This document shows positions 5,530 through 34,256 of a stretch of 64,000 nt of DNA, in pieces. Origin of the DNA: Brevibacillus laterosporus DSM 25 (lineage in GTDB: Bacteria; Bacillota; Bacilli; Brevibacillales; Brevibacillaceae); assembly GCF_002706795.1 (NCBI RefSeq), contig NZ_CP017705.1, positions 2,170,001-2,234,000 on the forward strand, in the 5' to 3' direction. The notes below the pieces were generated by a model. It searched no databases. It was not told the DNA's origin and saw nothing but the letters and a program-made list of their open reading frames with translations. A program made the translations under genes and the position numbers. Position 1 is the stretch's first letter; every line of letters begins with the position of its first letter.

Positions 5530-6825
5530 ATGATGCAAAAATGGACAGCGAGAGTAAACAAACTTTTATTGGCTGGTGCGATTGGAATGCTATCCATTGT
5601 TGGGGGAGCAATGCAGGCTTCTGCTGCTGACACGCCTGCCAATCTTGATTTAGTGGCGAGTTCAGCAATTCTAGTAGAAGCATCAACGGGAAAGATTTTG
5701 TATAGTAAAAATCCAGACACTCCATTGCCACCAGCTAGTATGACTAAAATGATGACTGAGTATCTGGTATTAGAGGCTATTAAAAAAGGAAAAATTAAAG
5801 AGGATGAACTTGTACCTGTTAGTGACTATGCTTTCTTTATTGCTAAAATAAAGGACTCCTCAGGCGTGTACTTAAATGCTGGGGAAAGTCACAAGGTAAG
5901 TGAACTATATAAAGCCATGGCGATTGCCTCAGCTAACGATGCTACAGCACTGTTAGCAGAAAAGATTGGTGGATCTGAAGCCAATTTTGTAGACATGATG
6001 AATAAAAAAGCCCAAGAGCTGGGGATGAAAAATACGTTTTTTGTTACATCAACTGGTTTGCCTGCTAATGAATTAGGCCCTTTTAAACCAGCCGATACAA
6101 GCAAGGATAATGTGATGTCTGCGCGTGATGCAGCTATCCTGGCAGATCATTTAGTGACTGATTATCCTGAGGCATTAAAAATTTCTAACATACCGCGCTG
6201 GGTGTTCCGTGAGGGTCAAAAAGATGAAATCAAGCTAGCAAACAATAACTGGATGCTTCCAGGTTTGCCAAATGAAACACTTGGGGTAGATGGTCTTAAG
6301 ACTGGTTATACGGATGCAGCAGGCTATTGCTTTACAGGAACAGCTTATCGTGATGGAATGCGCTTAATCACAGTTGTTATGGGAGCTAAAACAAAAACAA
6401 GTCGTTTTGAAGAAACGAAAAAGTTATTAAATTATGGATATAGCACCTACAAAGCTACAGAGAAGCTGGGAAAAGGCGTACCTGTACCAGGATTTGAAAA
6501 TGCACCAGTTAAAAAGGGTGTAGCTCTAGAAGTTCCAGTTATTACCACCAAATCAGTTAATGTTGTGGGTAAAATTGGAGAAGAAGCTAAAGCAACGCCT
6601 CGTGTCGAGTATAAAGTTTTGACGGCTCCTATTAAAAAAGGTGATGTTATTGGTACCGTCCACCTTGATACAGAAGGGAAAAGCGATTATTTGATGCCAA
6701 GTAATCTAAAGGGCGGAGTAGATTTGATAGCTGCTGAAGATGTAGAAGAAGGTAGCTGGATTCGCCTATTCTTTAGAAGTATCTTTGAATTTATCGCTAA
6801 TCTGTTTAAAAGTATTGTTGGCTAA
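5530..6825 (+). CDS. dacA: D-alanyl-D-alanine carboxypeptidase (PBP5 type)
   Basis: Low-molecular-weight penicillin-binding protein that removes the terminal D-Ala from peptidoglycan stem peptides outside the membrane. An N-terminal signal peptide (about residues 1-32, ending near QASA) precedes the serine transpeptidase-like domain. The three active-site motifs are visible: SMTK (Ser70, Lys73), SAND, and KTG in GLKTGYTDAAG. A C-terminal beta-rich domain ends in an amphipathic membrane anchor (IRLFFRSIFEFIANLFKSIVG). A GTG at 5518 lies inside the Shine-Dalgarno TAGGGGAG, so the ATG at 5530 (or 5533) is the likelier start, giving 431 residues. Confidence 0.95.
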   Translation: MMQKWTARVNKLLLAGAIGMLSIVGGAMQASAADTPANLDLVASSAILVEASTGKILYSKNPDTPLPPASMTKMMTEYLVLEAIKKGKIKEDELVPVSDYAFFIAKIKDSSGVYLNAGESHKVSELYKAMAIASANDATALLAEKIGGSEANFVDMMNKKAQELGMKNTFFVTSTGLPANELGPFKPADTSKDNVMSARDAAILADHLVTDYPEALKISNIPRWVFREGQKDEIKLANNNWMLPGLPNETLGVDGLKTGYTDAAGYCFTGTAYRDGMRLITVVMGAKTKTSRFEETKKLLNYGYSTYKATEKLGKGVPVPGFENAPVKKGVALEVPVITTKSVNVVGKIGEEAKATPRVEYKVLTAPIKKGDVIGTVHLDTEGKSDYLMPSNLKGGVDLIAAEDVEEGSWIRLFFRSIFEFIANLFKSIVG

Positions 6826-6890
6826 TGAAGCAGAGGTAGCGTTGCGAGCAATAGAACTTTAAAAGAAGGCAAATATTCTGTCAAGATATG

Positions 6891-6919
6891 TTGTCTACTT
6901 TTTCTGATTGGTTTACAAT
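6891..6919 (+). promoter_or_regulatory. sigma-A promoter of pdxST
   Basis: TTGTCT at 6891-6896 and TACAAT at 6914-6919, spacer 17 bp. Confidence 0.7.
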
Positions 6920-6981
6920 AAAAACAATGTTTCAAATCTAATCCTTTTGTAGGGATGTTCACTTATAGGGGAGGCTCACTG

Positions 6982-7866
6982 ATGGTACAGGTAGGTACAG
7001 ATCGTGTTAAACGTGGAATGGCAGAAATGCAAAAAGGCGGCGTAATTATGGACGTTGTCAACGCTGAGCAAGCTAAGATTGCGGAAGCTGCGGGTGCAGT
7101 AGCCGTTATGGCACTGGAACGCGTTCCATCTGATATTCGTGCGGCCGGTGGCGTAGCGCGCATGGCTGATCTAGGAATTGTAGAGGAAGTATTAAAATCC
7201 GTCACGATTCCTGTAATGGCAAAAGCACGTATTGGTCATTTTGTAGAAGCACGTGTCCTGGAATCTATGGGAGTAGATTATCTTGATGAAAGTGAAGTAC
7301 TTACTCCTGCTGATGACTTGTACCATATTAATAAAAAAGATTTCACAGTGCCATTTGTCTGTGGTGCGCGTGATTTAGGTGAAGCTCTTCGTCGTATCGG
7401 AGAAGGTGCATCTATGATTCGTACAAAAGGGGAGCCAGGAACAGGAAACATTGTTGAGGCTGTTCGCCATATGCGTACGATGCAAGCGCAAATCCGTAAA
7501 GTACAGAGCATGTCTTATGATGAATTAATGGCTGAAGCGAAAAATCTTGGAGCTCCGTATGAATTGTTGGAGCAAATTCACAAAACAGGAAAGCTTCCTG
7601 TTGTAAACTTCGCTGCCGGTGGTGTTGCAACACCAGCTGATGCTGCTTTGATGATGCAACTAGGTGCGGATGGCGTATTCGTAGGTTCCGGTATCTTTAA
7701 ATCCGAGAATCCTGAAAAATTCGCTCGTGCTATTGTAGAAGCAACAACACACTACACTGATTACGAATTGATTGCACGCGTTTCTAAAGACCTTGGTTCT
7801 GCGATGACAGGAATCGAAATTTCTAAGTTGCCGCAAGCTGAGCGCATGCAAGAGCGCGGTTGGTAA
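6982..7866 (+). CDS. pdxS: pyridoxal 5'-phosphate synthase, synthase subunit
   Basis: Lyase subunit of the PdxS-PdxT complex that makes PLP from ribose 5-phosphate, glyceraldehyde 3-phosphate and ammonia. The protein is 294 residues, identical in length to B. subtilis PdxS. The two catalytic lysines are seen in [10 protein letters not shown] and [10 protein letters not shown], and the phosphate-binding [23 protein letters not shown] is intact. The ATG at 6982 follows GGGGAGG at ideal spacing; an upstream in-frame codon at 6955 lacks a binding site. It is co-transcribed with pdxT, one base apart. Confidence 0.98.
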
Positions 7867-19756: not shown

Positions 19757-21538
19757 ATGGCTTATACAGCGCTATATCGGGTATATAGACCGCAAACCTT
19801 TGGTGATGTGATTGGACAAACTCATGTCACAACTACCTTGCAAAATGCTCTTCGCGAGGGGCGACTTTCGCATGCTTACCTGTTTAATGGACCAAGGGGA
19901 ACAGGGAAGACTAGTGCAGCTAAGATTATGGCAAAAGCAGTAAACTGTCAGAATCCACAGGCTGGTGAACCTTGTAACCAATGTCCAGCATGTATAGCAA
20001 TTACAGAAGGCTCAGTGACCGATGTCTTGGAGATTGACGCTGCATCAAATCGTGGTGTAGAAGAAATTCGAGATATACGTGATAAGGTCAAATTTGCACC
20101 AAGCGAAGTAAAATATAAAGTGTACATTATTGATGAAGTACACATGCTGACAACAGAGGCGTTTAACGCACTGTTAAAAACATTAGAAGAACCACCTGGG
20201 CACGTACTATTCATCTTAGCAACGACCGAGCCACATAAGCTACCAGCAACCATTATTTCCCGTTGTCAGCGCTTTGATTTTCATCGCATATCACTAGCTG
20301 AAATGACCCGCCGTTTACAGCATATATGTGATGCTCAACAAATTGAAGCTGAGGAACAAGCACTCCAGTTGGTTGCTAAAATGGCTGAGGGTGGAATGCG
20401 TGATGCACTTAGCTTGCTAGATCAGGCGATTAGCTATAGCGGGAATCAAGTGAGTGCATCCGATGTGTTAAAGATTACAGGGGCTGTGTCACAAGCTTAT
20501 TTTTCTACTCTTGGTCATATGATTTCTGAACAAAATGTAACTGGGGTAATGGAAGAGCTGGAGAAGATTATGTCTCAGGGAAAAGACCCTGAACAGTTCT
20601 TACAAGATCTATTGTTCTATTTTAGGGATATGTTGTTATATAAAACAGCCCCTAATTTGGAAGAAATTATGGAACGTACACTCATTGATGAAAAATTCCC
20701 AGATGTAGCCAACAGATTTGCTCTGCCTGTTTTATATGAAGTAATAGAGCAGCTTAATCAGGCCTTGACTCAACTTAAATGGTCGACGTTTGCACGAGTT
20801 TTGGTAGAGATGACATTAGTTCGCTTATGCCACCTATCTGCCCCAACTTCCAAAGCTGTTCCTGTATCTACAGGGCAAGAAGTATTGGAGGCTGGTCATG
20901 GAGTAGGTGTGGTATCTGAACCAAACCTTGCTTCTGGAGGGACTGGAGCGGTTTCTAGCCCAGATGTAACTCCTCTCTTAGAGCGTGTAAAAATGCTAGA
21001 AGAGAAACTGAATCAAATTCTACAGGGGAACCTTGTAGGAGGAGGAAAGTCGCCTTCAGAGGATGGGAAACAACGAGAAGTCCGACGGGCTATGCCGGTT
21101 ACAGGCGGCTCGAAGACTTCTATGACAAAGGTACGCGAAACCGTTCGACAAGTGGATGAGGGACTTTCTCAAAAAATTCGTGGTTCGTGGGGCCAAATTT
21201 TATCAGAAGTGAAAAAAGTTCACTATAAATATCATGCATGGGTCGTAAGCGGTCAGCCGACTGTTGCTAGCTCTGATGCTGTTATTGTTACTTTTAAAGG
21301 ATCGATTCATTGTGAAAAAACAATGGAACCAGAGCTAAGAGGTATTGTAGAGCGTGCGTTTCTTACTGTATCAGGTACACCACTCCAGCTTCTATCCATA
21401 ACAGAAGAAGAGTGGGAAAATGTCCGGGGAGAACAAACGCATTCAAATTCCACAGGATCAGATCAGCCTCCAGAGGACCCGTTTATAGCTGAAGCGATTC
21501 GAGTCGCTGGAGAAAGATTGACTCACATTAAGGAATAA
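19757..21538 (+). CDS. dnaX: DNA polymerase III subunits gamma/tau
   Basis: AAA+ subunit of the clamp loader that opens the beta clamp and ties polymerase to helicase. 593 residues. The N-terminal ATPase has Walker [13 protein letters not shown], a zinc knuckle in [16 protein letters not shown], Walker [23 protein letters not shown], and the arginine-finger segment SRCQRFDF. A linker of low complexity (about 370-450) precedes a tau-like C-terminal domain. I see no obvious slippery-sequence frameshift signal. It leads an operon with ybaB and recR, as in other Bacillales. Confidence 0.97.
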
Positions 21539-21572
21539 AGCAGAAAACATATATTTAAAGGAGGAATTACGA

Positions 21573-21884
21573 ATGAAAAACATGCAACAAATGATGAAAC
21601 AAGTAAAAAAAATGCAGGATGAGATGCAAAAAGCACAAGAACAATTGAAAGACAGAGTAGTAGAAGGTACAGCTGGCGGTGGCGCTGTAGTTGTAAAAGC
21701 GAATGGACATAAGCAAGTCATTGATGTAACAATCAATCCAGAAGTAGTTGACCCAGAAGACGTGGAAATGCTGCAAGATCTAGTACTTGCTGCCATTAAC
21801 GATGCTATGAAAAATGTCGATGAAGTAGTTGGAAAAGAAATGGGACGCTTTACTGGCGGTATGAACATTCCTGGATTGTTCTAA
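21573..21884 (+). CDS. yaaK: YbaB/EbfC nucleoid-associated protein
   Basis: 103-residue DNA-binding protein of the YbaB/EbfC family. The N-terminal helix ([25 protein letters not shown]) is followed by a three-strand sheet ([26 protein letters not shown]) and the C-terminal [28 protein letters not shown]. It is linked to dnaX (34 nt) and recR (37 nt), the standard dnaX-ybaB-recR operon. Confidence 0.95.
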
Positions 21885-21921
21885 TTTACCAGCATAAGCT
21901 CCCGTAAAGGAGTAGGTCGTT

Positions 21922-22518
21922 GTGTTTTATCCAGAGCCCGTCTCGAAATTAATAGAAGGTTTTATGAAATTGCCGGGCATTGGACCAAAAACAGCAAGTC
22001 GGTTAGCTTTTCATGTGTTAAGCATGAAGGAAGATGACGTACTTGATTTAGCAAAAGCATTGGTTAACGCCAAACGGCAACTGCACTACTGCTCGGTTTG
22101 TAATAATATCACCGATTCGGACCCATGTCAGATTTGCCGCGATAAAAGCCGTGATGGTTCTATCATCTGTGTAGTTCAAGAACCAAAAGACTTGGTTGCC
22201 ATGGAACGAACCAGAGAATTTACGGGATATTATCATGTTCTGCATGGTGCTATTTCACCTATGGATGGGATTGGTCCTGAAGATATTCATATTCCCGATC
22301 TGCTCAAACGGTTAGGTGATGAACAAGTACAAGAACTGATTTTAGCTACAAACCCTAATATTGAAGGGGAAGCTACAGCAATGTATATTTCCCGTTTAGT
22401 AAAACCTTTTGGCATTCGTGTCACACGTATTGCTCATGGTCTACCTGTAGGTGGGGATTTAGAGTATGCTGATGAAGTAACATTGACCAAAGCGTTAGAA
22501 GGTCGCCGAGAATTATAA
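21922..22518 (+). CDS. recR: recombination mediator RecR
   Basis: Acts with RecO and RecF to load RecA on gapped DNA. 198 residues: an N-terminal helix-hairpin-helix ([20 protein letters not shown]), a four-cysteine zinc finger ([16 protein letters not shown]), and a Toprim domain ([16 protein letters not shown] ... [13 protein letters not shown]). The GTG start follows AAAGGAG at 10 nt. Confidence 0.97.
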
Positions 22519-22530
22519 TAATAGGGATAA

Positions 22531-22559
22531 GAGGTGCATGAGAAATCATGCGCCTTTTT
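22531..22559 (+). terminator. dnaX-ybaB-recR terminator
   Basis: AGGTGCATGA pairs with TCATGCGCCT around GAAA, followed by TTTTT. Confidence 0.85.
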
Positions 22560-22663
22560 GTTATTTGTTATATGAGATAATATAAGATATTTTAAGGTTG
22601 AAATGAAAGAAAGTGCTTTTTCACTAGGACGAGGCATAACCTAAAGAGTAGGAGAGTGAATGA

Positions 22664-23629
22664 ATGCAACCATATATGCAATTGATGCCAACTATAAGAA
22701 GGCACTCTGTAAAATGGGCTTGGATATTAACCTTTCAATATGTTCTGTATATAAGTATTCAATTATCAGCAACATTAATCTTGCGAAGGGCAGACGGTAC
22801 CTGGGAAATCCATATGTTAGCCAATATGGGAACGATACAAGCTTTAGTATTATGGGGGAATATATTTCTTACATTACTGACGAGTACCCTGTTTTTTATT
22901 GCTTTGATTCGAGATCGGCGATTCTCTACTTCGACTAGTCATACACAGGTAAACGGTACAGATTTTATTCATGCAGTCGCATTTATGCAAGTCTTTTATA
23001 ATGCCTCCATTTTCTTATATGGGACGGGGATCGTGACCTATCCACTTTTTACAGTGGGAAGTATAGGAGGACTTTTAGAATCTGCTTCCTTGCAAATTGT
23101 CTTGTGTATGTTTTGTTTTATTTGGTTTCGAGGTCGCTTAGAGTCGATAGGTTTTAAAAATCCGACTGATATAGGAAGAATGTTTTTATTTATTATAGGC
23201 TGTTATTTGGGTATTACATTCCTGCTAAGCTATGTGGTGGCGCCATTGGCTGACCTTTTTCAAATATCATTAAGCTCCGCACGTGAAGAAGGGATCAGCC
23301 GCGAAATAAAAGATGCCAAGCAAAATAGTTTGATAACGATTTTCTTTTCCTTTTTTATGACTGGCTTATTTGTACCGATCGCCGAAGAAATGATGTTTCG
23401 CGGAGTCCTTCAGACTTATTTAGTGAAAAAGTGGGGTGCTCTATGGGGAATTCTGATCGCTAGCTTTTGGTTTGCTATTATTCATATTGATTTAGCTTTG
23501 TTTCTGCCTTTATTCATGATTGGTTTATCGCTTGGAATCGTCCGTCATCGCTTTCACTCACTGTGGGCTTCGATTATATTACATTCAATAAACAATGTAG
23601 TTAGTGTCATTCTTTCTTCTCAATCATAA
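22664..23629 (+). CDS. CPBP family intramembrane metalloprotease
   Basis: 321-residue polytopic membrane protein with about eight hydrophobic segments. The C-terminal half carries the CPBP (CaaX protease and bacteriocin-processing, Abi) motifs: EEMMFRG (EExxxR), then FAIIHI (FxxxH), then ILHSINN (HxxxN/B). These glutamates and histidines form the intramembrane active site in the family. The substrate is unknown. The frame at 22660-22938 is a shadow; the Shine-Dalgarno AGGAGAG serves the ATG at 22664. It replaces no named gene of the B. subtilis order. Confidence 0.87.
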   Translation: MQPYMQLMPTIRRHSVKWAWILTFQYVLYISIQLSATLILRRADGTWEIHMLANMGTIQALVLWGNIFLTLLTSTLFFIALIRDRRFSTSTSHTQVNGTDFIHAVAFMQVFYNASIFLYGTGIVTYPLFTVGSIGGLLESASLQIVLCMFCFIWFRGRLESIGFKNPTDIGRMFLFIIGCYLGITFLLSYVVAPLADLFQISLSSAREEGISREIKDAKQNSLITIFFSFFMTGLFVPIAEEMMFRGVLQTYLVKKWGALWGILIASFWFAIIHIDLALFLPLFMIGLSLGIVRHRFHSLWASIILHSINNVVSVILSSQS

Positions 23630-23661
23630 ACCTCATGAATGAATGGAAGGGGGATTTTTAT

Positions 23662-23898
23662 ATGAAATGGTTGAAAAGGAACGCGAGCATGAAAGAGCAA
23701 CAGGTACATCCTTATCATTTACAGAATGCGATTGCTAGTGCTCTACAGTATTGGCAAAATGCCCAGCGTCATGTGGATTTCTCGGAGGGCGTCCAACAGG
23801 TTGACCATTTTATTTATCAATACCGTCTTGCTGAGAAGCGCTATATGTATTTACTCAAGCAAATACGCCGTCAAAATGAGAAACAAAGAGAAGCGTAG
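23662..23898 (+). CDS. yaaL: DUF2508 family protein YaaL
   Basis: 78-residue helical protein of the YaaL family; function unknown. The conserved core is the central IASALQYWQNAQRHVDFSEGVQQVDHFIYQYRLAEKRYMYLLKQIR. The ATG at 23662 follows AAGGGGGAT; the upstream codon at 23635 is less well placed. Located between recR and bofA as in B. subtilis. Confidence 0.85.
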   Translation: MKWLKRNASMKEQQVHPYHLQNAIASALQYWQNAQRHVDFSEGVQQVDHFIYQYRLAEKRYMYLLKQIRRQNEKQREA

Positions 23899-23915
23899 AG
23901 GGAGAGGATGGGAAA

Positions 23916-24185
23916 ATGAACACGGAAATCATGATAGCTGGGATTATCATTGGGTTCCTGGTTTTGGTGGCGCTTAGTAGATCAGTTTCCCGTCCACTGC
24001 GTTGGACGGGAACTATTGCGCTCAATGTTATTATTGGAGCGATCCTCTTGTACTTCTCTAATTTTTTTGGTGAGATGGCGGGATTTTATGTGCCGATTAA
24101 TCCAGTAACAGCTATTATAGCAGGATTTCTACGAATTCCCGGCTTACTTGCGCTGATCGTCATTCGGCTATTTCTGCTAGGCTAA
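23916..24185 (+). CDS. bofA: sigma-K checkpoint protein BofA
   Basis: Forespore-facing inhibitor that, with SpoIVFA, holds the SpoIVFB protease inactive until the sigma-G signal, so that pro-sigma-K is cut at the right time. 89 residues with two to three hydrophobic stretches. The C-terminal segment (YVPINPVTAIIAGFLRIPGLLALIVI) is the conserved BofA signature. Start follows GGGAGAGGATGGGAAA. Confidence 0.9.
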   Translation: MNTEIMIAGIIIGFLVLVALSRSVSRPLRWTGTIALNVIIGAILLYFSNFFGEMAGFYVPINPVTAIIAGFLRIPGLLALIVIRLFLLG

Positions 24186-24188
24186 ACA

Positions 24189-24713
24189 TTAACTCTTTCC
24201 ATCAGTCATCAGAAACGCAAGGCTTGCTTTTTCATATTTCACATAGGCTTCCCGTGGATGGCGGAATGAAACAAGCAAAGGAATCAGACGTGGAAGTAAA
24301 CTAAACATGGTTATGATTACAAAAAAATGTCCGTAGGGAAAAGACGACCATGGAAAAATAGCTAAACAAGTAAAAAATACACCTAGACAAGTCACTGTCT
24401 CCATTTTTCTGTAATTTGCCAGTGACACCATAAGCGAATGAGTAACGCCCCACCAAGGAGACAACCAAGACAAGCTAGATAGTTGAAATGGCCGGGATAG
24501 AATAGAGGCATACACCCAAAAGGCTGTCATATGTAAAAGTGGGATGAAAATAAGACAACAAAGGAAAAGAATGAAAGAATACCAAGTCAGAGCTTGCCAG
24601 AGGCCCAGAATAAAAGTGGCCGTAATGATCCCAATTAGTTGTAACAGATAACCGCTAATTCCCCAACGAAAACGATATAGTAAGCGATAGCTGTAAATGG
24701 TCTGTTCTTTCAT
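24189..24713 (-). CDS. polytopic membrane protein, unknown function
   Basis: 174 residues with about five hydrophobic segments (for example LLQLIGIITATFILGLW, FILFLCCLIFIPLLHM, VTCLGVFFTCLAIFPW, VIITMFSLLPRLIPLLV). I do not recognise the family; a Yip1-like permease fold is possible but unproven. The ATG at 24713 is preceded on the minus strand by AAGGAGG at 7 nt. It is convergent with bofA with only 3 nt between the stops, and divergent from the phosphatase-fold gene. Confidence 0.75.
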   Translation of the reverse strand: MKEQTIYSYRLLYRFRWGISGYLLQLIGIITATFILGLWQALTWYSFILFLCCLIFIPLLHMTAFWVYASILSRPFQLSSLSWLSPWWGVTHSLMVSLANYRKMETVTCLGVFFTCLAIFPWSSFPYGHFFVIITMFSLLPRLIPLLVSFRHPREAYVKYEKASLAFLMTDGKS

Positions 24714-24781
24714 CAACAGGCCTCCTTTTTGTTCGTTCTATAGTATTATCGGTAGGTTGTATAGATAATTGTATCCTCCAA

Positions 24782-24810
24782 TTGACAGGAAAATATAGGG
24801 TTATTATCAT
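24782..24810 (+). promoter_or_regulatory. sigma-A promoter of the phosphatase-fold gene
   Basis: TTGACA at 24782-24787 and TATCAT at 24805-24810 with a 17-bp spacer, about 40 nt before the chosen start. This points to vegetative expression. Confidence 0.7.
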
Positions 24811-24852
24811 AGGGATTAATTGGTAATGTCAGGAAGACGGAGTGGAGATGCC

Positions 24853-26364
24853 ATGAGTACAGCTTTCAGCAAGGAAAGAATCGCCATGGTCTGCTGGAGT
24901 ATTTTCCGACAGGGAAACATATTTACTCTCCTATTCGTGGTGGTTGCTTTTTTGTGGTTTCATTTCTCTGAATGGTTCGATATGGTGTTTTGGCAAAGCT
25001 TTTTTATATCCCTACTATTATGTTTTCCTATTTTCTTATTATTGTTTTTCTATGAGTACCCCTTACATATACGTTGGTTTTTGCTAGGACCACTGTGTTT
25101 TGCAGGCCTCCTATGGTATAAATCATTATTGCTTAGTATGACTTTATATGCGGTCTGTCTTTATCTACTAGGGGTTACCGTGTTATGGGGTGTTTCCTAT
25201 TTCTATGGAGGTAAGCATATCAGCTTTCCTATCCAATGGATACGCTTTATGAAAAGGCTAACTAGGGCTAGTGATTCAAGCAGTGGTAATATACTTGAAC
25301 AATTGCCCAAAGCCTGGATCTTACTAATAGCGATGCAGGAAGCCTCTGTGGCATGGCAAGAATGGACGGTGAGTGAGAGTATCCTATCTCACTTTGTATT
25401 TGCGTTTGTATTATTTTTTTACAGTTATACGGTTCATCAATTGTTTTTTACATGGAAGCCTGTTGAGAATATTAATAATGCTAATAAGATTACTACACAG
25501 TATGTTTTTCCGGTTGAGCGAGTTTATCTAGTGGTATTGAATGGCTGTAATAAGGAACGATTATTCGAAGCTCACACCCCTTTTCTTGATTGGCTGCAAC
25601 GAACAGGAACTAGTTGGGATAAGGTAGAGAGCGTATATCCGGCTGATACAAAGGCTTGTTTTTGCTCTCTTTTAACAGGAACCTATCCGTCTGAACACCA
25701 GATAAATAGCCATCTCGGTATTCGAAGGACATTGGAGAGAGAGACAATCTTTGATGTTTTACAACAAGCAGGTAAGTTAGGGACGATATTGGCTGAGGAG
25801 AGGATAAGCTGCCTATTTGATGAAAAAGCTCATCATGCTTATGTACAGGAAAGTCAACAGCCTGATAACTATCGAATAGAGCAAGCTATTCAAATCATAG
25901 ATCAAGACAATCCAGAATTTCTTCTTGTGCAAATGACAGATATCTATCAAACAGGGATTGCATGTGGGGTCTCTTGTGACGAATATGTTGAAAAAATAAA
26001 CCAGACAGATCAAATGATCGCGCAGTTCTATCATACATTAGACAAGCTTGGGAAGCTAAATCAAGCCGTATTTATTGTTTGTTCTGATCATGGAGTAGCG
26101 ACAGGAATGGGTGGACGAGTACATCTGAGTCATAAAGAACGATACACCTCTCTTATCATGCATGGAACATCTATTCATCAAGGAAAAATCGTGACTACAA
26201 AGCGTTCGATAGTCTCTGTAGCTGCTACAATTGCTTATCTTTTAGCAGTTCCCTATCCGAAGCAAGCAAAGGGACCTGTTTTGTTAGAAGGGATGATCAC
26301 GTATCAAAACGAAGATCATCAATTCCCCATTTTTGGGAATGATAAATTCGAGCAGATTATATGA
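24853..26364 (+). CDS. membrane-anchored alkaline-phosphatase-fold protein, probably non-catalytic
   Basis: 503 residues. About five to six hydrophobic segments fill residues 15-215, followed by an alkaline phosphatase/sulfatase-superfamily domain from about 225, an order like that of lipoteichoic acid synthases. The nucleophile segment VYPADTKACFCSLLTGTYPSEH (Thr266 in the usual place) and SDHG (Asp415, His416) are kept. Other metal ligands look lost. The first Asp (usual VxxDG) is Asn230 in VVLNG. The usual DxxDHxGH motif reads DIYQTGI at 363-369. The protein may therefore be a pseudoenzyme or use a changed site. ATG at 24853 follows GGAG; 24826 is an alternative. The next gene starts 27 nt downstream. 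Confidence 0.75.
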   Translation: MSTAFSKERIAMVCWSIFRQGNIFTLLFVVVAFLWFHFSEWFDMVFWQSFFISLLLCFPIFLLLFFYEYPLHIRWFLLGPLCFAGLLWYKSLLLSMTLYAVCLYLLGVTVLWGVSYFYGGKHISFPIQWIRFMKRLTRASDSSSGNILEQLPKAWILLIAMQEASVAWQEWTVSESILSHFVFAFVLFFYSYTVHQLFFTWKPVENINNANKITTQYVFPVERVYLVVLNGCNKERLFEAHTPFLDWLQRTGTSWDKVESVYPADTKACFCSLLTGTYPSEHQINSHLGIRRTLERETIFDVLQQAGKLGTILAEERISCLFDEKAHHAYVQESQQPDNYRIEQAIQIIDQDNPEFLLVQMTDIYQTGIACGVSCDEYVEKINQTDQMIAQFYHTLDKLGKLNQAVFIVCSDHGVATGMGGRVHLSHKERYTSLIMHGTSIHQGKIVTTKRSIVSVAATIAYLLAVPYPKQAKGPVLLEGMITYQNEDHQFPIFGNDKFEQII

Positions 26365-26391
26365 TAGGCAAGCGGAAGGAGCAGATCATAC

Positions 26392-27492
26392 GTGAGCCAG
26401 GCAACGCTTGTGTACCTGCACTCGGTAGCTCCCATATCGTTACCTCGGGAATATCTTGAGGTACTAAGCACATGTGAGATAGATATCATTTCTGCAAAGG
26501 AATGGGAGCAGACAAATGATGAAATATCCGGTTGGCTTTTTACTGAAAGCCTGTCCACCCTAGAGTGGCAACAGTTTAAGCGTGATATAACAAGGTGTTT
26601 ACGTAATAAACGCTTAAATAATCGACCCTATCTTGTACTTTTAGCAGGAGATAATCTTTCTGATATTGTGGCGTATGAGTTTATAAAGCGACTACAACCT
26701 TTCAAGGATTCGATTGAAATCATTCGCTTACTGTGCTGGATGGAGCAAAAAAGGGCTATACTCGGTAGCAGTATTTGCGAGTGTCTAGCCGAGAATGATT
26801 TTGCAGTACGAAATTGGCATGATCATTTGCGAAGAGCATTTTCCATACAAGGTTATATTTCATTCGTGTGCAGATATGAAGAAGCAGTTGAAATTGCGTG
26901 GGCACGCCAGATATTTTTGAATCAGAAAACAAGATTTTATCATCGGATAGCCTCCCGATGTGATGAGCTGGGGGCTAGAGCAAATATTGTAGGGCAAGGT
27001 CTGGGCATGGACAGACGAATTGGACAAGAGTGGCTATTCCCAAATGTTTATGATGAGAGGACGTTACAGCAAGAACAAGAATGGCTTGAGCGTGAGTGGA
27101 ATTATTTGTTGCAACAAGTGAGTGTGAAGCGTGTAGCTATTTGGGGGTATTCTCCTATCCCTGGTGATATGCTTGCACAGCTTTCGTGCTTGGAAGTCTC
27201 TTGTTACTTGCAAGCGTGTCAGCAAAAAACGAACAATCTACCTAGCGATTGGCATTATTGCAATACTCCGCTTGAAGCAGCAAAACTGGCTGATGCTCTA
27301 CTCATTCTGAGACATGATCAGGATATTCGAAGTATACGTTTAGACAACTTATACGAAAGTATGGCTAAGCCCAATGTTTTAGACGTAGTGGACTGTTTTC
27401 CATCATATGAAGCAAAACTTGAGAAAATATGCTATCGAACACTTGGTCAAAATCCGAACGTTTGGAATGGAACAGATTATAATGGGATATAA
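26392..27492 (+). CDS. degenerate UDP-glucose dehydrogenase-like protein
   Basis: 366 residues, GTG start. Residues 163-217 (EEAVEIAWARQIFLNQKTRF ... GLGMDRRIGQEWLFP) resemble the central helical domain of UDP-glucose/GDP-mannose 6-dehydrogenases, which typically reads ETAEMIKYA.NAFLATKISF ... GIGLDKRIG. Residues from about 243 (VKRVAIWGYSPIPGDM ... ADALLILRHDQDIRSI ... VLDVVDCF) resemble the UDP-binding domain. The N-terminal third lacks the NAD-binding GxGxxG motif, and the GGSCFPKD segment with the catalytic Cys is replaced by FPNVYDERT. Lys179 is kept. Hence probably non-catalytic. It lies 27 nt after the phosphatase-fold gene, so the two are likely co-transcribed. Confidence 0.7.
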   Translation: MSQATLVYLHSVAPISLPREYLEVLSTCEIDIISAKEWEQTNDEISGWLFTESLSTLEWQQFKRDITRCLRNKRLNNRPYLVLLAGDNLSDIVAYEFIKRLQPFKDSIEIIRLLCWMEQKRAILGSSICECLAENDFAVRNWHDHLRRAFSIQGYISFVCRYEEAVEIAWARQIFLNQKTRFYHRIASRCDELGARANIVGQGLGMDRRIGQEWLFPNVYDERTLQQEQEWLEREWNYLLQQVSVKRVAIWGYSPIPGDMLAQLSCLEVSCYLQACQQKTNNLPSDWHYCNTPLEAAKLADALLILRHDQDIRSIRLDNLYESMAKPNVLDVVDCFPSYEAKLEKICYRTLGQNPNVWNGTDYNGI

Positions 27493-27528
27493 TGGTTGAT
27501 AAGCTTAGCGAAAAGGTAGGTGTCCCAT

Positions 27529-27711
27529 ATGGAAGACCACTCTCATCGCTGCATTATCTGCAATAGGGAACAAGCCGTTGGTATCTCCATTTTCAACCAA
27601 TTCATTTGTTATACATGCGAGCAAGAAATGGTCAAGACCGACGTACGTGACGAACGTTATCCCTTTTATATTAAACAGATGCGGCAGATCTGGTTTAAAA
27701 AGAATGCATAA
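27529..27711 (+). CDS. csfB: anti-sigma factor CsfB (Gin)
   Basis: 60-residue zinc protein that inhibits sigma-G (and sigma-E) in B. subtilis to prevent premature late forespore transcription. Two CxxC pairs are visible (CIIC and CYTC) around the conserved GISIFNQFIC segment. The ATG at 27529 is 8 nt after AAAAGGTAGG; the in-frame GTG at 27520 lies in that binding site. Confidence 0.9.
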   Translation: MEDHSHRCIICNREQAVGISIFNQFICYTCEQEMVKTDVRDERYPFYIKQMRQIWFKKNA

Positions 27712-27718
27712 TAACATG

Positions 27719-27754
27719 AAAAAGAGGCATGTCAATGGGCGATGCCTCTTTTCT
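27719..27754 (+). terminator. csfB terminator
   Basis: AAAGAGGCAT pairs with ATGCCTCTTT around an 11-nt loop, followed by TTTTC. Confidence 0.75.
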
Positions 27755-27819
27755 TATGGGCTTTTGGACTTTTGAACATGGTACAATAGGGGGTACCGAA
27801 ACAAAAGGACGTGAAAAAG

Positions 27820-29304
27820 ATGATGCAAAATCAGGAAGATTTTTGGGAGAGACAGCGCCAAGCTCCGTTGTTTGATGCACTACAGAGGCATGCACGACAA
27901 ACCCCCCATCCTTTTCATGTACCTGGGCATAAGATGGGGAGAAGCTTCGATAAGGAAGCAAGGTCTTTTTTTGAAAAATACTTGTCTATTGATTTAACAG
28001 AGATTACGGGGTTAGATGACTTGCATCAGCCTGAAGATATTATTGCTCAAGCACAGCAGCTGGCTGCAGAGGCATATGGAGCTGAAGACACCAAATTTTT
28101 AGTAGGTGGAACAACCGTAGGTAATTTGGCTACGATCATGTCAATTTGTCGACCTGGAGATAAAATTATTGTTCAGCGTAATTGTCATAAATCGGTTTAC
28201 CATGGATTGATGCTTGCGAAAGCGGAGCCAATTTTTGTTGTTCCTGCGGTCGATGCAGAGACTGGTATTGCAGCAGGTGTGCGACGTGAAGACGTAGAGC
28301 GACTTTTGCTTGAGCATCCAGAATGCAAGGCTGTCTTTCTTACCAATCCGACTTATTATGGAATGGGTATTGATTTAGAAAAGATGGCTACCGTTGTTCA
28401 TCGTTATCATATTCCATTAATCATCGATGAAGCACATGGTGCTCACTATGGTTTCCACCCCGACTTACCTGCCTCAGCCATGCAGAGTGGGGCAGATATT
28501 TCAATTCAGTCTACGCATAAGATGGGAACCGCTTTTACAATGGGATCAATGCTACATGCCCAAGGAGAGCTTGTTGATCGTAGTCGGTTGTATCGTTATC
28601 TGGCGATGCTACAGTCTTCTAGCCCATCTTATCCGCTAATGGCATCTCTTGATTTAGCACGTCGGCATATGGTGCTAGAGGGACAACAAGAGCTGGAGAA
28701 GGCTATTGGGCTTATTGAAAAAACGAAAGAACGCCTTAGCCATTTCGATTGGTTTACAGTAGCTGGGTGGAAAAAACAAACAGGGTACCAGACACTAGAT
28801 CCGCTACGAATTGTAATTAATTTACATTCATCTCAGCTATCAGGGTTTGAATTGCAAACAAAGCTAGAAGAAGCTTATATTTATACAGAGTTAGCGGGAC
28901 TGCATCATCTTTTGCTACTAGGGTCCACAGGCACAACAGAGATGGATTGTAAAAGGTTACTTGCTACTGTGGAGGAGCTGTCAAAACAAGTGAGGGGAGA
29001 AGGTCTGCGTGCTTTTGAAACGGGATTAGTCTCCTCCTGCTTTTTACGTAAAGTAGCTATGAGTATGCATGTAGCTGTAGACGAGGAAGCGGAATCTCTA
29101 CTACTAGAAGAAGCACAGGGACGCATCTGTGCTGAGATGGTTATTCCATATCCACCAGGTATACCTATGATTGTTCCAGGTGAAGTCCTAGATGAACAAG
29201 TGATTTCTCTTTTGCAGGAATTACAGAGAAGAGAGGCTCGCTTTCATGGTGTGAAGGATGCTACTGTAAAAACCATTCAAGTCATAAAAGGTAAACATTG
29301 TTAA
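27820..29304 (+). CDS. yaaO: Orn/Lys/Arg decarboxylase-family PLP enzyme (YaaO-like)
   Basis: 494-residue fold-type I PLP enzyme of the basic amino acid decarboxylase family. The N-terminal [11 protein letters not shown] and [12 protein letters not shown], the cofactor region [30 protein letters not shown], and the Schiff-base lysine in [13 protein letters not shown] are all present. The C-terminal domain with [12 protein letters not shown] is intact. Substrate (lysine, arginine or ornithine) cannot be assigned from sequence alone. The ATG at 27820 is preferred over GTG 27811, which is too close to AAAAGGA. It lies next to tmk as in B. subtilis. Confidence 0.9.
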
Positions 29305-29314
29305 ACGAAGGGGT

Positions 29315-29953
29315 ATGGTGAACGCAGGCATGTTTATTTCATTAGAAGGTGGAGACGGTGCAGGAAAATCCACTGCAATTGCGCTTTTAGAAAAAAGAGT
29401 AACAGAACAGGGATTGGCGGTTTTAGTCACACGTGAACCAGGTGGGGTTGATATCGCTGAACAAATTCGTGAAGTTATATTGAATCGAGAAAATACAAAA
29501 ATGGATGGGCGAACAGAGGCGTTATTATATGCAGCAGCGAGACGCCAGCATCTTGTTGAAAAGGTGATCCCAGCGTTAGAGCAAGGTAAAATTGTACTTT
29601 GCGATCGATTCATTGATAGTAGTTTAGCTTATCAGGGAGTGGCGCGAGGGCTACCTACAGACGAAATATTTGCCATTAATCAATTTGCTATTCAGGATCG
29701 TATGCCTGATCTTACCTTTTATCTTGACGTATCCCCAGAAGTGGGACTAGCTCGAATTGAAGCTAATTCTAATCGGGAAAAAAATCGTCTTGATTTGGAA
29801 AAAGTGTCATTTCACACTCGGGTACGTGAAGGATATGAACTATTGATTACTAAATTCCCAGAACGGATTGTTCGTATTAATGCTGACCAACCAATAGAGC
29901 AGGTAGTAGACGAAATGCTTACTATTATGCAAGAAAAAATAAAAAAAGCATAG
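29315..29953 (+). CDS. tmk: thymidylate kinase
   Basis: Phosphorylates dTMP to dTDP. 212 residues with P-loop [12 protein letters not shown], the DRF/DR(Y)-type motif [13 protein letters not shown], and a LID region around [14 protein letters not shown]. The start is uncertain: ATG 29315 is very close to GAAGGGG, and GTG 29318 is slightly better spaced. It leads the tmk-yaaQ-yaaR-holB-yaaT-yabA cluster, although a terminator and a long gap separate it from yaaQ here. Confidence 0.95.
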
Positions 29954-29969
29954 ACGGATAACCCGAAAC

Positions 29970-30043
29970 AAAGAGCAGACGCATCATACAGTGTTTTCCT
30001 CGCCAGACGGTGAAAAGCAACAATGATGAGAGGCTCTTTTTTT
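29970..30043 (+). terminator. terminator after tmk
   Basis: AAAGAGC...GCTCTTT and CATCAT...ATGATG arms enclose an inner TTTTC...GAAAA stem; seven T follow. Confidence 0.7.
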
Positions 30044-30090
30044 CGTCGTAAGAAAAATTTGTTTGAATGAAAAATAGGTCGTACATGCTG

Positions 30091-30310
30091 TATAATAGGA
30101 AAAAGCACTAAGGAAGATTTCCTTGTGTGAAAGCTACAAAAATTACACCAAGTAGCTGTTTTGACATAACAATAAGGTAAGCCCCTTAAAAATAACAAAT
30201 TACCAGATTTTATTTGATTTTTCCGATTAAGTAATGCACTTTTCTAAAGGAAAGTGGTACCCTTCAATCGAATTATAGCCAGAGTAATTACATGGTGTTA
30301 CTGGTAAGAG
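30091..30310 (+). promoter_or_regulatory. darA promoter and possible structured leader
   Basis: A perfect TATAAT at 30091-30096, with no convincing -35, opens a leader of about 250 nt before darA. The leader contains CACTTTTC/GAAAGTG and CCAGAGTAA/TTACTGG stem-loops near 30237-30256 and 30280-30306. It does not match a riboswitch class that I know. No gene is seen in this gap. Confidence 0.4.
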
Positions 30311-30352
30311 AGCTAAGCACTACAATTGCGAAGCAGAAAGGATGAAATCACT

Positions 30353-30682
30353 ATGAAAATGGTCATCGCTGTTGTGCAGGATAAAGACAGTGGGCGTTTA
30401 TCACAAGCCCTTGTGAAAAAAGGATTCCGTGCTACAAAATTGGCCAGTACAGGAAGCTTTCTCCGCGCTGGGAATACAACGTTTCTTGTAGGGACCGATG
30501 ATGGTCGTGTAACAGAGCTTATTACCATCATTGAACAGAACTGCCAATCCCGCAAACAGATGGTGACCCCTGTGTCGCCACTTGGAAGTGGAGTGGATTC
30601 ATTTTTATCATATCCACTTGAAGTACAAGTGGGGGGCGCAGCCGTATTTGTGATGGACGTAGAGCATTTCCATTCTTTTTAG
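30353..30682 (+). CDS. darA: cyclic-di-AMP receptor, PII-like
   Basis: 109 residues, the same length as B. subtilis DarA (YaaQ), a trimeric PII-like protein that binds c-di-AMP. Conserved segments are MKMVIAVVQDKDSGRLSQAL, GFRATKLASTGSFLRAGNTTFLVG and the C-terminal GGAAVFVMDVEHFHSF. Its downstream target is not well defined even in B. subtilis. The ATG at 30353 follows AAAGGATG at good spacing; the in-frame codon at 30326 does not. Confidence 0.95.
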   Translation: MKMVIAVVQDKDSGRLSQALVKKGFRATKLASTGSFLRAGNTTFLVGTDDGRVTELITIIEQNCQSRKQMVTPVSPLGSGVDSFLSYPLEVQVGGAAVFVMDVEHFHSF

Positions 30683-30715
30683 TTTCGGGTAAAGGTGAGC
30701 GGGAGTGAGGACCAA

Positions 30716-31159
30716 GTGAAAATTGATAATGGCATCAGACCTACATTTGAAGTAAAAGGGATAGGTCAACGCAGAGATGTATCTGTGGAAAAGATGAACT
30801 TTCGAGATATGGTTAAAGGTGAAGGGCAGAGATTGAACGAGGAAAGACTTCAGCTTCTGCTTACTGAAATAGATAAACATGGAGATATTTTGGCTCGCTC
30901 CCGCAATGTACGAGATTACTATTCGTATCGTAATCTTATCAAGCGATTTATGGAGGAAGCCGTTCGGTTTGGAATTACTCTCGACGAGCGTAAAGGAACC
31001 AATCGTCGAGGAAGAGGTCGTATTCATAAAATTATCAAAGAGATTGATGCTGAATTATTGGCATTGGCAGATGATCTATTGAGTGAGCAGGCCCCTCTGA
31101 TAGATATGCTTTCTCGAATTGGAGAAATCAGAGGCATGCTAATTAATTTATATTTTTAG
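30716..31159 (+). CDS. yaaR: YaaR family protein
   Basis: 147-residue helical protein of the YaaR family; function unknown. GTG at 30716 follows GGGAGTGAGG and gives an MKI N-terminus and a length like that of B. subtilis YaaR (146 residues). The C-terminal RNVRDYYSYRNLIKRFMEEAV and ELLALADDLLSEQAPLIDMLSRIGEIRGMLINLYF segments are the family core. Sits between darA and holB as usual. Confidence 0.88.
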   Translation: MKIDNGIRPTFEVKGIGQRRDVSVEKMNFRDMVKGEGQRLNEERLQLLLTEIDKHGDILARSRNVRDYYSYRNLIKRFMEEAVRFGITLDERKGTNRRGRGRIHKIIKEIDAELLALADDLLSEQAPLIDMLSRIGEIRGMLINLYF

Positions 31160-31169
31160 GTGAAAATAA

Positions 31170-32153
31170 ATGAGCTGGAGTAATGTAGCAAAAAAACAAG
31201 AGCGCGTGTCGGAAATCTTAGCTAATAGTATGAAGCATGATCGTTTGGCTCACGCTTATCTATTTACAGGGCCAAAAGGGGTAGGCAAAATGGAAGTGGC
31301 CGAGCACTTGACCAAATCCATTTTTTGCTTAGATCAGCCCGGTGATGCTTGTGGGACATGCTTGAACTGTCAACGTATTCAATCAGGGAATCATCCTGAT
31401 GTGTATCGAATCTCTCCAGATGGAGCATCTGTCAAAATAGAGCAGATAAGAGCCTTGCAAAAAGAAATGAAGATGCGTGCTGTTGAATCGAAGAATAAGG
31501 TTTATATTTTAGAGCATGTAGATAAAATGACAACCCAAGCGGCAAATAGTTTGCTGAAATTTTTAGAAGAACCACCAGTGGGTGTGCTTGCTTTGTTGCT
31601 ATCTGAAAACAGCCATGCTATTTTACCCACAATTTTATCCAGATGCCAGACAGTAGTATTCAACCCTCTACCGGTTGAAATGATAGTGCAATCGCTTGTA
31701 AACGAAGGAATTACGAAGGGCTTAGCCCAAGTTGCTTCCCAAATTACAACAAATCTGGACGATGCCCGGCTATTAAGCCAATCAGAATGGTTTGCACAGC
31801 TTAAAGCTATGGTGATACAATTGGGAAGGGATTTGAAACAACGTGATTCCCAAGCGCTGTTTACGATTCAAGATCAATTTCAACGTAACGATAGATTAAA
31901 AGAAGAACTTCCTCTCTTTCTGGATTTGCTCATCCTTTGGCTGCGAGATATCCTCTATATTCAAGTAGGGCGTAGGGCCAACATCATCAACATAGACCAA
32001 CAGGATGCATTAGAAGAGCAGGCCTTGCAATGGGCGCAAACCGAGATATTGCGAGGAATTGATGTAGCCATGGAGACAAGAAATCGGATAGAGCGTAATG
32101 CTAACCCACAATTAGCGTTAGAGCGACTTGTTCTTCATATCCAGGAGGGATAA
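31170..32153 (+). CDS. holB: DNA polymerase III delta' subunit
   Basis: Clamp-loader subunit, 327 residues. The AAA+ fold has FTGPKGVGKMEVAEHL, a zinc knuckle in CLDQPGDACGTCLNCQ, and the SRC motif in ILSRCQTVVF. The P-loop threonine/serine is replaced by Met (GKME), as expected for a delta' subunit that does not hydrolyse ATP. It starts 10 nt after yaaR and ends 3 nt before yaaT. Confidence 0.95.
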   Translation: MSWSNVAKKQERVSEILANSMKHDRLAHAYLFTGPKGVGKMEVAEHLTKSIFCLDQPGDACGTCLNCQRIQSGNHPDVYRISPDGASVKIEQIRALQKEMKMRAVESKNKVYILEHVDKMTTQAANSLLKFLEEPPVGVLALLLSENSHAILPTILSRCQTVVFNPLPVEMIVQSLVNEGITKGLAQVASQITTNLDDARLLSQSEWFAQLKAMVIQLGRDLKQRDSQALFTIQDQFQRNDRLKEELPLFLDLLILWLRDILYIQVGRRANIINIDQQDALEEQALQWAQTEILRGIDVAMETRNRIERNANPQLALERLVLHIQEG

Positions 32154-32156
32154 ATT

Positions 32157-32972
32157 TTGTACGAGGTGGTCGGAATCCGCTTCAAAAAAGCGGGTAAGAT
32201 ATATTATTTTGATCCTGACGAAATGCAGATAGACAAAGACAGTCACGTGATTGTTGAAACAGCACGGGGTGTTGAGTATGGCAAGGTCGTGATCGGACAA
32301 AAGACAGTGGAGGACTCTGATGTTGTTCTTCCTTTGAAAAAAGTGATTCGAATTGCCGACGACTCAGATGCTAAGCAAGTCGATGAGAATCGATCTGCTG
32401 CAAAAAATGCGTTTCAGGTGTGCCAAACCAAGATTAGAGAACATCAACTGGAAATGAAGCTGGTAGATGTTGAGTATACATTCGACCGAAATAAAATTAT
32501 TTTTTATTTTACGGCGGACGGCCGCGTTGATTTTCGTGAATTAGTGAAGGATTTAGCAGCAGTTTTTCGTACGCGTATTGAATTGCGACAGATTGGTGTT
32601 CGAGATGAAGCTAAGATGCTTGGCGGTATAGGACCTTGTGGTCGAATGCTATGCTGCTCCACCTTTTTGGGTGATTTTGAACCGGTATCCATTAAAATGG
32701 CGAAAGATCAAAATCTCTCGCTTAATCCCGCTAAAATATCCGGTTTGTGTGGACGTCTCATGTGCTGTTTGAAGTATGAAAATGATAATTACGAAACAAC
32801 GAAGGAAGAGATACCTGAACTAAGCTCATGGGTGAAAACACCAATGGGGGATGGCAGAGTTGTAAGCTTGAATATTTTAGGCAGGGTGGCTCAGGTTGAT
32901 CTCCTAGAAGTAGGAAGAGTCATGGAGTTTACTTTTGATGAGATCGTAACAAGTCGACCAGAGATCGGATAG
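32157..32972 (+). CDS. ricT: PSP1-domain protein RicT (YaaT)
   Basis: 271 residues. Part of the RicA-RicF-RicT (Y) complex that binds iron-sulfur clusters and, in B. subtilis, promotes RNase Y-dependent mRNA maturation and stimulates the sporulation phosphorelay. The cysteine set is visible in GGIGPCGRMLCCSTFL and SGLCGRLMCCLKYE. The TTG start is 6 nt after AGGAGGGA. Confidence 0.94.
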   Translation: MYEVVGIRFKKAGKIYYFDPDEMQIDKDSHVIVETARGVEYGKVVIGQKTVEDSDVVLPLKKVIRIADDSDAKQVDENRSAAKNAFQVCQTKIREHQLEMKLVDVEYTFDRNKIIFYFTADGRVDFRELVKDLAAVFRTRIELRQIGVRDEAKMLGGIGPCGRMLCCSTFLGDFEPVSIKMAKDQNLSLNPAKISGLCGRLMCCLKYENDNYETTKEEIPELSSWVKTPMGDGRVVSLNILGRVAQVDLLEVGRVMEFTFDEIVTSRPEIG

Positions 32973-32998
32973 AGGACGGGTAGCGAGAGGTGATGAAG

Positions 32999-33385
32999 TT
33001 GGAGAAACAGGAAATCTTCGCTAAAATCGCGAGCATGGAAGAGAGAGTGGGCGAACTCTATCAGGAGATTGGCAGCCTAAAAGACGTGATCGTCAACCTT
33101 TTGGAAGAGAATGCTCAGCTTCTCATTGAAAATGAACACTTGCGTAACCGATTCCAGAAAAGGGTCGATCAGTCTACTTCCAAAAGGCAAAGTGCTGGCC
33201 AACAAAAAAGGGTAGCAACCAGTCAAAAGATAGTAGGCAATCAAAAAATAGTGGGCGAAGGATACGATAACCTTGCGCGACTATATGCGGAAGGATTTCA
33301 TATTTGCAACGTACATTATGGTAGTATAAGAAAAGAAGGCGATTGCCTGTTCTGCTTATCTTTTTTAAGCGGTGGACACAAGTGA
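32999..33385 (+). CDS. yabA: initiation control protein YabA
   Basis: Negative regulator of replication initiation that bridges DnaA and the DnaN clamp. The N-terminal coiled coil (about residues 1-55) mediates tetramer formation, and the C-terminal zinc domain has HICNVHYG ... CLFCL. TTG at 32999 gives [10 protein letters not shown], which lines up with the B. subtilis N-terminus MDKKELF, and follows GAGAGGTGAT. ATG 32993 or GTG 32990 are alternatives that overlap that binding site. Confidence 0.92.
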
Positions 33386-33395
33386 TACGAAAAAC

Positions 33396-33436
33396 AAAAG
33401 CGACCTGATGTCTATTACACAGACGGGTCGCTTTTT
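33396..33436 (+). terminator. terminator after yabA
   Basis: AAAAGCGACC pairs with GGGTCGCTTTTT; an inner GTCT/AGAC extends the stem. Confidence 0.85.
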
Positions 33437-33488
33437 ACTGATAAATTGATAGTATAGCTACCTTCTGATTGATAAGAGAGGATACAAT

Positions 33489-34256
33489 ATGACAGAAAAA
33501 CAGCAGGTTCCCTTGTATGATACAGAACGGATTGACGATTTGTTAACCTACGAATTAAAAATCATTCAAAGTCATGAAGTGTTTTGCTTTTCTATGGATG
33601 CAGTGTTACTTGCTCGTTTTGCACAGGTACCTAAAAGGGGAAAAGTGTTAGATTTCTGCACAGGTAATGGAGTGCTCCCGCTCTTAATGAGCACAAGGAC
33701 ACCATTTGCCGAATTTGAAGGTATTGAATTACAAGAACGATTGTTTCACATGGCAGACCGTAATGTAATCATGAATGGGTTAGAAAAACGTATTACTATT
33801 CATCATGGTGATGTACGTAAGGCAGTAGAGAGATTTGGAGATAGTAAATATGATCTCATCACCTGTAATCCACCATATATGCCTCCGATCACAGGAGAGG
33901 TAAGTAAAAATGATCATCGTGCCATAGCACGTCACGAAATTCATCTTACATTAGATGATGTACTACGAGTTGGAAGTAGGCTACTGAAGAATGGTGGTAA
34001 GCTGGCATTAGTGCATCGTGCTACTCGTCTGATCGATATTGTTACTGGAATGAGAATGTATGGAATCGAGCCTAAACGTATGCGGTTCGTGCATTCCCGC
34101 CAAGACAGTGAACCTAACATGGTACTTGTGGAAGGGATACGCGGAGGGAAACCGGAGCTTCGTATACAACCTCCACTGATTGTGTATAAGCAGGGGGAAG
34201 AGTATTGCGATGAATTATATGAAATCTATTATGGAAAGCGAGATTCCCTCACATAA
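33489..34256 (+). CDS. yabB: tRNA1(Val) adenine N6-methyltransferase family protein
   Basis: 255-residue class I SAM-dependent methyltransferase. SAM-binding motif I is VLDFCTGNGVLPLL, and the N6-adenine catalytic motif is NPPYMPP. It resembles TrmN6 of tRNA1(Val) and the B. subtilis YabB. Starts an operon with yazA and rsmI, and its end overlaps yazA. Confidence 0.9.
   Translation: MTEKQQVPLYDTERIDDLLTYELKIIQSHEVFCFSMDAVLLARFAQVPKRGKVLDFCTGNGVLPLLMSTRTPFAEFEGIELQERLFHMADRNVIMNGLEKRITIHHGDVRKAVERFGDSKYDLITCNPPYMPPITGEVSKNDHRAIARHEIHLTLDDVLRVGSRLLKNGGKLALVHRATRLIDIVTGMRMYGIEPKRMRFVHSRQDSEPNMVLVEGIRGGKPELRIQPPLIVYKQGEEYCDELYEIYYGKRDSLT

Follow-up and report, generated by a model that had tools for sequence, protein, structure and literature searches.

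Directly upstream of csfB in Brevibacillus laterosporus DSM 25 lies an open reading frame that resembles a UDP-glucose dehydrogenase (UGDH) and lacks the residues on which such enzymes depend, and the question raised by this locus is why such a gene has been kept. Here we show that it is the non-catalytic remnant of the UGDH of a glycan operon between bofA and csfB, that its active-site motifs are lost, and that it holds the same chromosomal position across a bacterial family and remains under purifying selection. The reading that we favour, with a probability of roughly 0.6, is that of a conserved UGDH-derived pseudoenzyme, in which NAD binding, catalysis and the gripping of UDP have been lost, the central and C-terminal domains are held by selection, and a dimeric structural or regulatory role may have taken over. 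A search of the open-licence literature found no paper on a UGDH-derived pseudoenzyme or on the bofA-csfB UGDH locus. The features discussed below are collected in Table 1; the window is the whole 64,000-nucleotide stretch that was analysed (contig NZ_CP017705.1, positions 2,170,001 to 2,234,000).

Table 1. Features of the locus, in window coordinates
Feature	Position	Strand	Remarks
Predicted UGDH-derived pseudoenzyme gene	26392..27492	+	GTG start, 366 aa, Brevibacillus laterosporus group
N-terminal Rossmann (NAD) domain remnant, aa 1-120	26392..26751	+	From AF2 secondary structure; lacks GxGxxG, VGTP and catalytic T/E; wholly missing in some orthologues
Central helical domain, aa 121-245	26752..27126	+	PF00984 match aa 171-219; most constrained third
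K179, UGDH catalytic-lysine position	26926..26928	+	Invariant, 30/30
GMDRRIG (aa 205-211), UGDH central-domain motif kept	27004..27024	+	GGSCFPKD loop expected next is deleted
C-terminal "UDP-binding" domain, aa 246-352	27127..27447	+	PF03720 match aa 278-336; lacks FK motif and DxRN arginine
C-terminal tail, aa 353-366	27448..27489	+	Disordered in model (pLDDT <50 for 355-366); codons 355-358 conserved as DNA family-wide
SigmaF/sigmaG-type promoter-like element of csfB	27465..27498	+	GAATG-N15-GGATATAATG, over 3' end of UGDH-like gene
csfB (Gin, anti-sigmaG/sigmaE)	27529..27711	+	PF10764 E=2.3e-18; constant downstream neighbour
Membrane phosphodiesterase (alkaline-phosphatase superfamily)	24820..26364	+	Likely start ATG 24853; metal ligands missing
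SigmaA-like promoter before pde-ugd pair	24782..24810	+	TTGACA-N17-TATCAT

The frame is intact, as the first-pass annotation of this DNA had stated: it is open throughout and sits in a stop-to-stop frame of only 374 codons, and therefore no N-terminus with an NAD loop is concealed before the chosen start. Taken alone, the window protein scored below Pfam's cut-off for both PF03720 (E=3.1e-5) and PF00984 (E=1.1e-3) and had no match to PF03721 in this search; it matched the TuaD model NF047673 at E=7e-12, best over aa 162-215, and the UGDH structure PDB 4a7p at 7.5e-9. Once an alignment of 30 orthologues was used as a profile, the match to 4a7p was significant (2.2e-24) and covered both the central and the C-terminal domains. 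The best 50 Foldseek matches in the PDB to an AF2 model of the protein (pLDDT 81, pTM 0.74) were exclusively UGDHs (E about 1e-12, TMq 0.48-0.58), and profile and model together extend the homology over three domains. The gene is thus confirmed as a genuine, diverged UGDH relative, and the earlier assignment of its central and C-terminal parts to the UGDH pattern is borne out. Two further UGDHs, both canonical, are encoded elsewhere in the same genome.

Motifs were read from an alignment to canonical and intact UGDHs, with family counts taken among 30 Brevibacillaceae; the roles of the Thr, Glu, Cys, Lys, FK and DxRN positions we take to be those of established UGDH enzymology. The glycine positions of GxGxxG are occupied by A13, I15 and P18, leaving no dinucleotide-binding loop; VGTP is absent, the catalytic Thr of STVPVG is replaced by N88, and the Glu of PEFLxEG is deleted. 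The catalytic Cys of GGxCxPKD falls in a gap in 30/30 members, and no replacement nucleophile exists in the catalytic loop because the loop itself is deleted in all of them. Contacts to UDP are likewise gone, with the FK pair of FKPxTDD deleted in 30/30 and the DxRN Arg replaced by V333. The missing glycine motif and catalytic segment reported in the first-pass annotation were therefore real, and the survey of homologues makes the loop's loss a property of the whole family; beyond it, the catalytic residues are lost in every csfB-linked copy read except one (L087). What is kept in 30/30 is the catalytic-lysine position, K179, and the GxDxR(I/V)G positions G205, D207, R209 and G211, with C160, C190 and C335 nearly invariant in the orthologue alignment. 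GxDxRIG and the lysine are not kept in every other family (UGD80, UGD84), and therefore no one residue signature spans all orthologues.

In the model, the N-terminal part retains alternating strands and helices, and therefore the glycine loop has been lost but the fold has not. Orthologues at four loci (L005, L081, L104, L107) have no N-terminal domain at all, so that the unit kept is the central and C-terminal domains, of which the central helical domain forms the dimer interface in UGDHs. The window protein thus has in common with TuaD, Ugd and the structures 4a7p, 3gg2 and 2q3e a three-domain fold in the model, the GMDxRIG motif and the fold of the C-terminal domain; unlike TuaD and Ugd, which have 440-450 aa, it lacks the NAD loop, the catalytic Cys loop and the UDP-gripping residues, at a length of 366 aa. 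Without NAD motif and catalytic Cys it is predicted not to be a dehydrogenase and would be best filed as a UGDH-derived pseudoenzyme rather than as a UGDH; with enzyme-derived pseudoenzymes in general it shares lost catalytic residues together with a preserved fold and continued selection. Such genes may receive a nucleotide sugar dehydrogenase label by similarity, without having the residues that this activity needs.

An orthologue is present in 40/40 genomes of the family searched, including a B. laterosporus record at 78% identity (L001), and the main matches have no internal stops; one of the 40 (G001, locus L005) has a shortened copy of 276 aa with its first part missing. Within the B. 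laterosporus group, dN/dS of the gene is 0.23-0.27 (Nei-Gojobori), compared with 0-0.08 for recR, csfB, speA and tmk by the same method. By thirds it is 0.28-0.41 at the N-terminus, 0.08-0.24 in the middle and 0.12-0.39 at the C-terminus, and bootstrapping of the thirds (300 replicates) gave a ratio of 1 or more no more than 14 times. All thirds are therefore under purifying selection at the protein level (0.08-0.41), strongest in the central domain, at values several times those of the four reference genes, which also fits slow relaxation. Together with the 40/40 occurrence, these ratios rule out a local pseudogene.

The gene stands after bofA and directly before csfB in all 20 family loci read. 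There, speA follows csfB in every locus whose contig extends that far (L041 ends after csfB), and recR precedes in 19 of the 20, the remaining one (L055) beginning at cpbp. A wider survey, consisting of a class-wide search, a csfB survey and the reading of 60 further csfB loci, found that four more Bacilli families (f8, f12, f21, f27) have a UGDH-like ORF immediately before csfB, in the recR-bofA ... csfB position; most other families surveyed, including the large f4 and f7, lack it there. This synteny across families argues for vertical descent and against a phage or mobile origin, and a search of viral contigs with the neighbouring phosphodiesterase gave no match. Retention beside csfB throughout the loci examined, and in 40/40 genomes, despite the loss of the active parts suggests a second, non-enzymatic job. 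Any link of the gene to sporulation would, as judged from sequence, consist in this fixed position next to csfB and nothing beyond.

The origin of the gene is revealed by the exceptional locus in another Bacilli family, L087, where an intact UGDH (6139-7461; PF03721 4e-37) occupies the identical position and is orthologous by synteny and tree. Unlike the window protein, it has GGGYVG, the catalytic T and E, GGPCLPKD and FK, and it lies in a five-gene glycan operon in the order PMT-like membrane protein, LPG_synthase_TM protein, Phosphodiest protein, GT2 and UGDH, followed by csfB. Intermediate stages survive elsewhere: L086 keeps most of the operon with a decayed UGDH that includes a remnant of the N-domain, L082 and L085 have lost this domain, and in L080, L083 and L084 the C-domain match alone is left, Pfam scores dropping stepwise from orthologue to orthologue. 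Among the 20 Brevibacillaceae loci, flippase, phosphodiesterase and GT2 are still present in four (L042, L047, L053, L055), three of which also have an epimerase; the window locus keeps the phosphodiesterase and ugd only. In the gene tree all csfB-linked copies fall on one side and canonical UGDHs on the other, with 100/100 support. Living intermediates from an intact enzyme to a two-domain core at one fixed locus are unusual, and the series allows one to ask what a metabolic enzyme does beyond catalysis. As a separate observation, the ugd ORF of L048 (3813-5063, minus strand) starts in sequence left over from a GT2 glycosyltransferase gene.

We accordingly envisage an ancestral UGDH belonging to an old glycan-assembly operon between bofA and csfB, which would have comprised a PMT-like membrane glycosyltransferase, a flippase-like LPG_synthase_TM protein, an alkaline-phosphatase-type phosphodiesterase, a GT2 and the UGDH. 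NAD binding, catalysis and UDP gripping would have been lost while selection retained the central helical and C-terminal domains, through which the remnant may work as a dimer or scaffold in a structural or regulatory role. How often catalysis was lost bears on this history. A single loss is not rejected against the gene tree (AU p=0.36); given vertical descent, several losses are indicated because an intact copy (G198) and a degenerate one (G178) occur in the same genus. We suggest, tentatively and with considerable doubt, that the operon UGDH was bifunctional, that catalysis was lost more than once (in G178 as against intact G198, and in four other families), and that the second role kept the gene, giving rise to a pseudoenzyme family of spore-forming Bacilli.

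The 3' end of the gene likely doubles as the csfB promoter, judging from nucleotide conservation. A sigmaF/sigmaG-type pattern falls exactly at 27465-27493 and is, by itself, no rarer than chance in the 64 kb, so that conservation carries the claim. Across 30 genomes the codon run ACG AAC GTT TGG shows zero synonymous variation, whereas conserved residues elsewhere in the gene use their commonest codon at a mean fraction of 0.50; the conserved DNA block does not end with the stop codons, which lie in different frames, but continues into TATAATGGGGTATAATGG. N356 (invariant) and W358 (29/30) lie within this run and were set aside as candidate functional residues, their codons being fixed as DNA. 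At the equivalent place in other families, G(T/C)(A/T)T(A/G)-N14-16-GGnnAnn(A/T) occurs in 9 of 14 loci (base-shuffled sequence gave 0.4 on average), and this element is similar to the sigmaF promoter of csfB in B. subtilis, with GTATA and GGGGAGGCTA (PMC4383634). Immediately ahead of the UGDH-like gene, neither a regex scan nor visual alignment of the upstream sequences revealed a consistent sporulation promoter, and an Rfam search of window positions 20000-34000 gave nothing at the gathering threshold. Because the gene adjoins csfB and overlaps its likely promoter, any deletion of the gene has to leave that promoter intact if its effects are not to be misread as sporulation phenotypes.

The upstream phosphodiesterase is degenerate as well, if its motifs have the roles presumed from the alkaline-phosphatase superfamily. 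In the window it reads VVLNGC for VVIDGC in the first metal motif (N for D), DIYQTGI for STDQTGH (Y and I) and GGRVH for GGHGH (R); both close relatives carry the same changes, save for an M in L040 at the place of the window's I. The nucleophile Thr is kept in all three, and the metal-binding D and H positions are kept in seven more distant relatives. Its dN/dS is 0.16-0.21, and thus two neighbouring degenerate enzymes persist under selection. The sigmaA-like site before the pair would allow vegetative expression, and the two genes are probably expressed together from it; the three close relatives have the identical first hexamer, and the second reads TATGAT in L001 but TATCAT in the other two, although this region is no richer in promoter-like sites than shuffled sequence is. 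The idea that the UGDH-like protein partners its neighbour does not generalise, since the phosphodiesterase is missing from most genomes that keep the gene, which rules it out as an obligatory partner; the constant neighbour is csfB.

Other explanations were weighed against that of a conserved pseudoenzyme. The remnant might use the former dimer interface to bind one of the cell's own canonical UGDHs and modulate that enzyme's activity, with R209 filling out the active site of the partner. In UGDHs the equivalent Arg extends into the active site of the adjacent subunit, and it is the central domain that is most constrained, with K179 and G205/D207/R209/G211 invariant; a canonical UGDH co-occurs in all genomes checked, which is weak evidence because UGDHs are common anyway. 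The UGDH-like gene shows no linkage to a canonical UGDH gene, however, and UGD83 and UGD84 have lost some or all of the R/D/G positions; we regard such pairing as unlikely. That the protein became a nucleotide-sugar sensor, still binding a UDP-sugar and signalling to a partner, had been suggested in the first-pass annotation. In 27 of the 30 members the C-terminal domain does match the UDP-binding domain family, but this reading is weakened because the contacts that would hold UDP (Gly-rich loop, F-K pair, DxRN Arg of the C-domain and catalytic loop) are gone, and it now appears very improbable.

A decaying relic, retained mainly for the csfB promoter in its 3' end, would account for the invariant codon run and for the conserved DNA block that ignores stop codons. 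Yet a promoter alone would not hold 330 codons open, and with selection acting on all three thirds and frames open in 40/40 main matches we give this explanation a low probability. A new reaction on the old scaffold would be in keeping with invariant K179 and the three nearly invariant cysteines; set against the deletion of catalytic and cofactor loops and a dispensable N-domain, it is the kind of change that we consider highly implausible. The reading as a conserved pseudoenzyme accommodates selection on the protein together with a 3' end that may serve also as the csfB promoter.

Several neighbouring genes deserve mention in their own right. A CPBP (Rce1-like) intramembrane protease gene at window positions 22664-23629, between recR and yaaL, is conserved in the family. 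A membrane-like protein with no Pfam match (24189-24716, minus strand), encoded in the opposite orientation in the interval from bofA to the UGDH-like gene, is present in nearly all relatives and in other Bacilli families; in L048 an FMN oxidoreductase gene lies between it and the UGDH-like ORF. Downstream of the degenerate UGDH in L085, two csfB-like copies stand in tandem (5677-5953).
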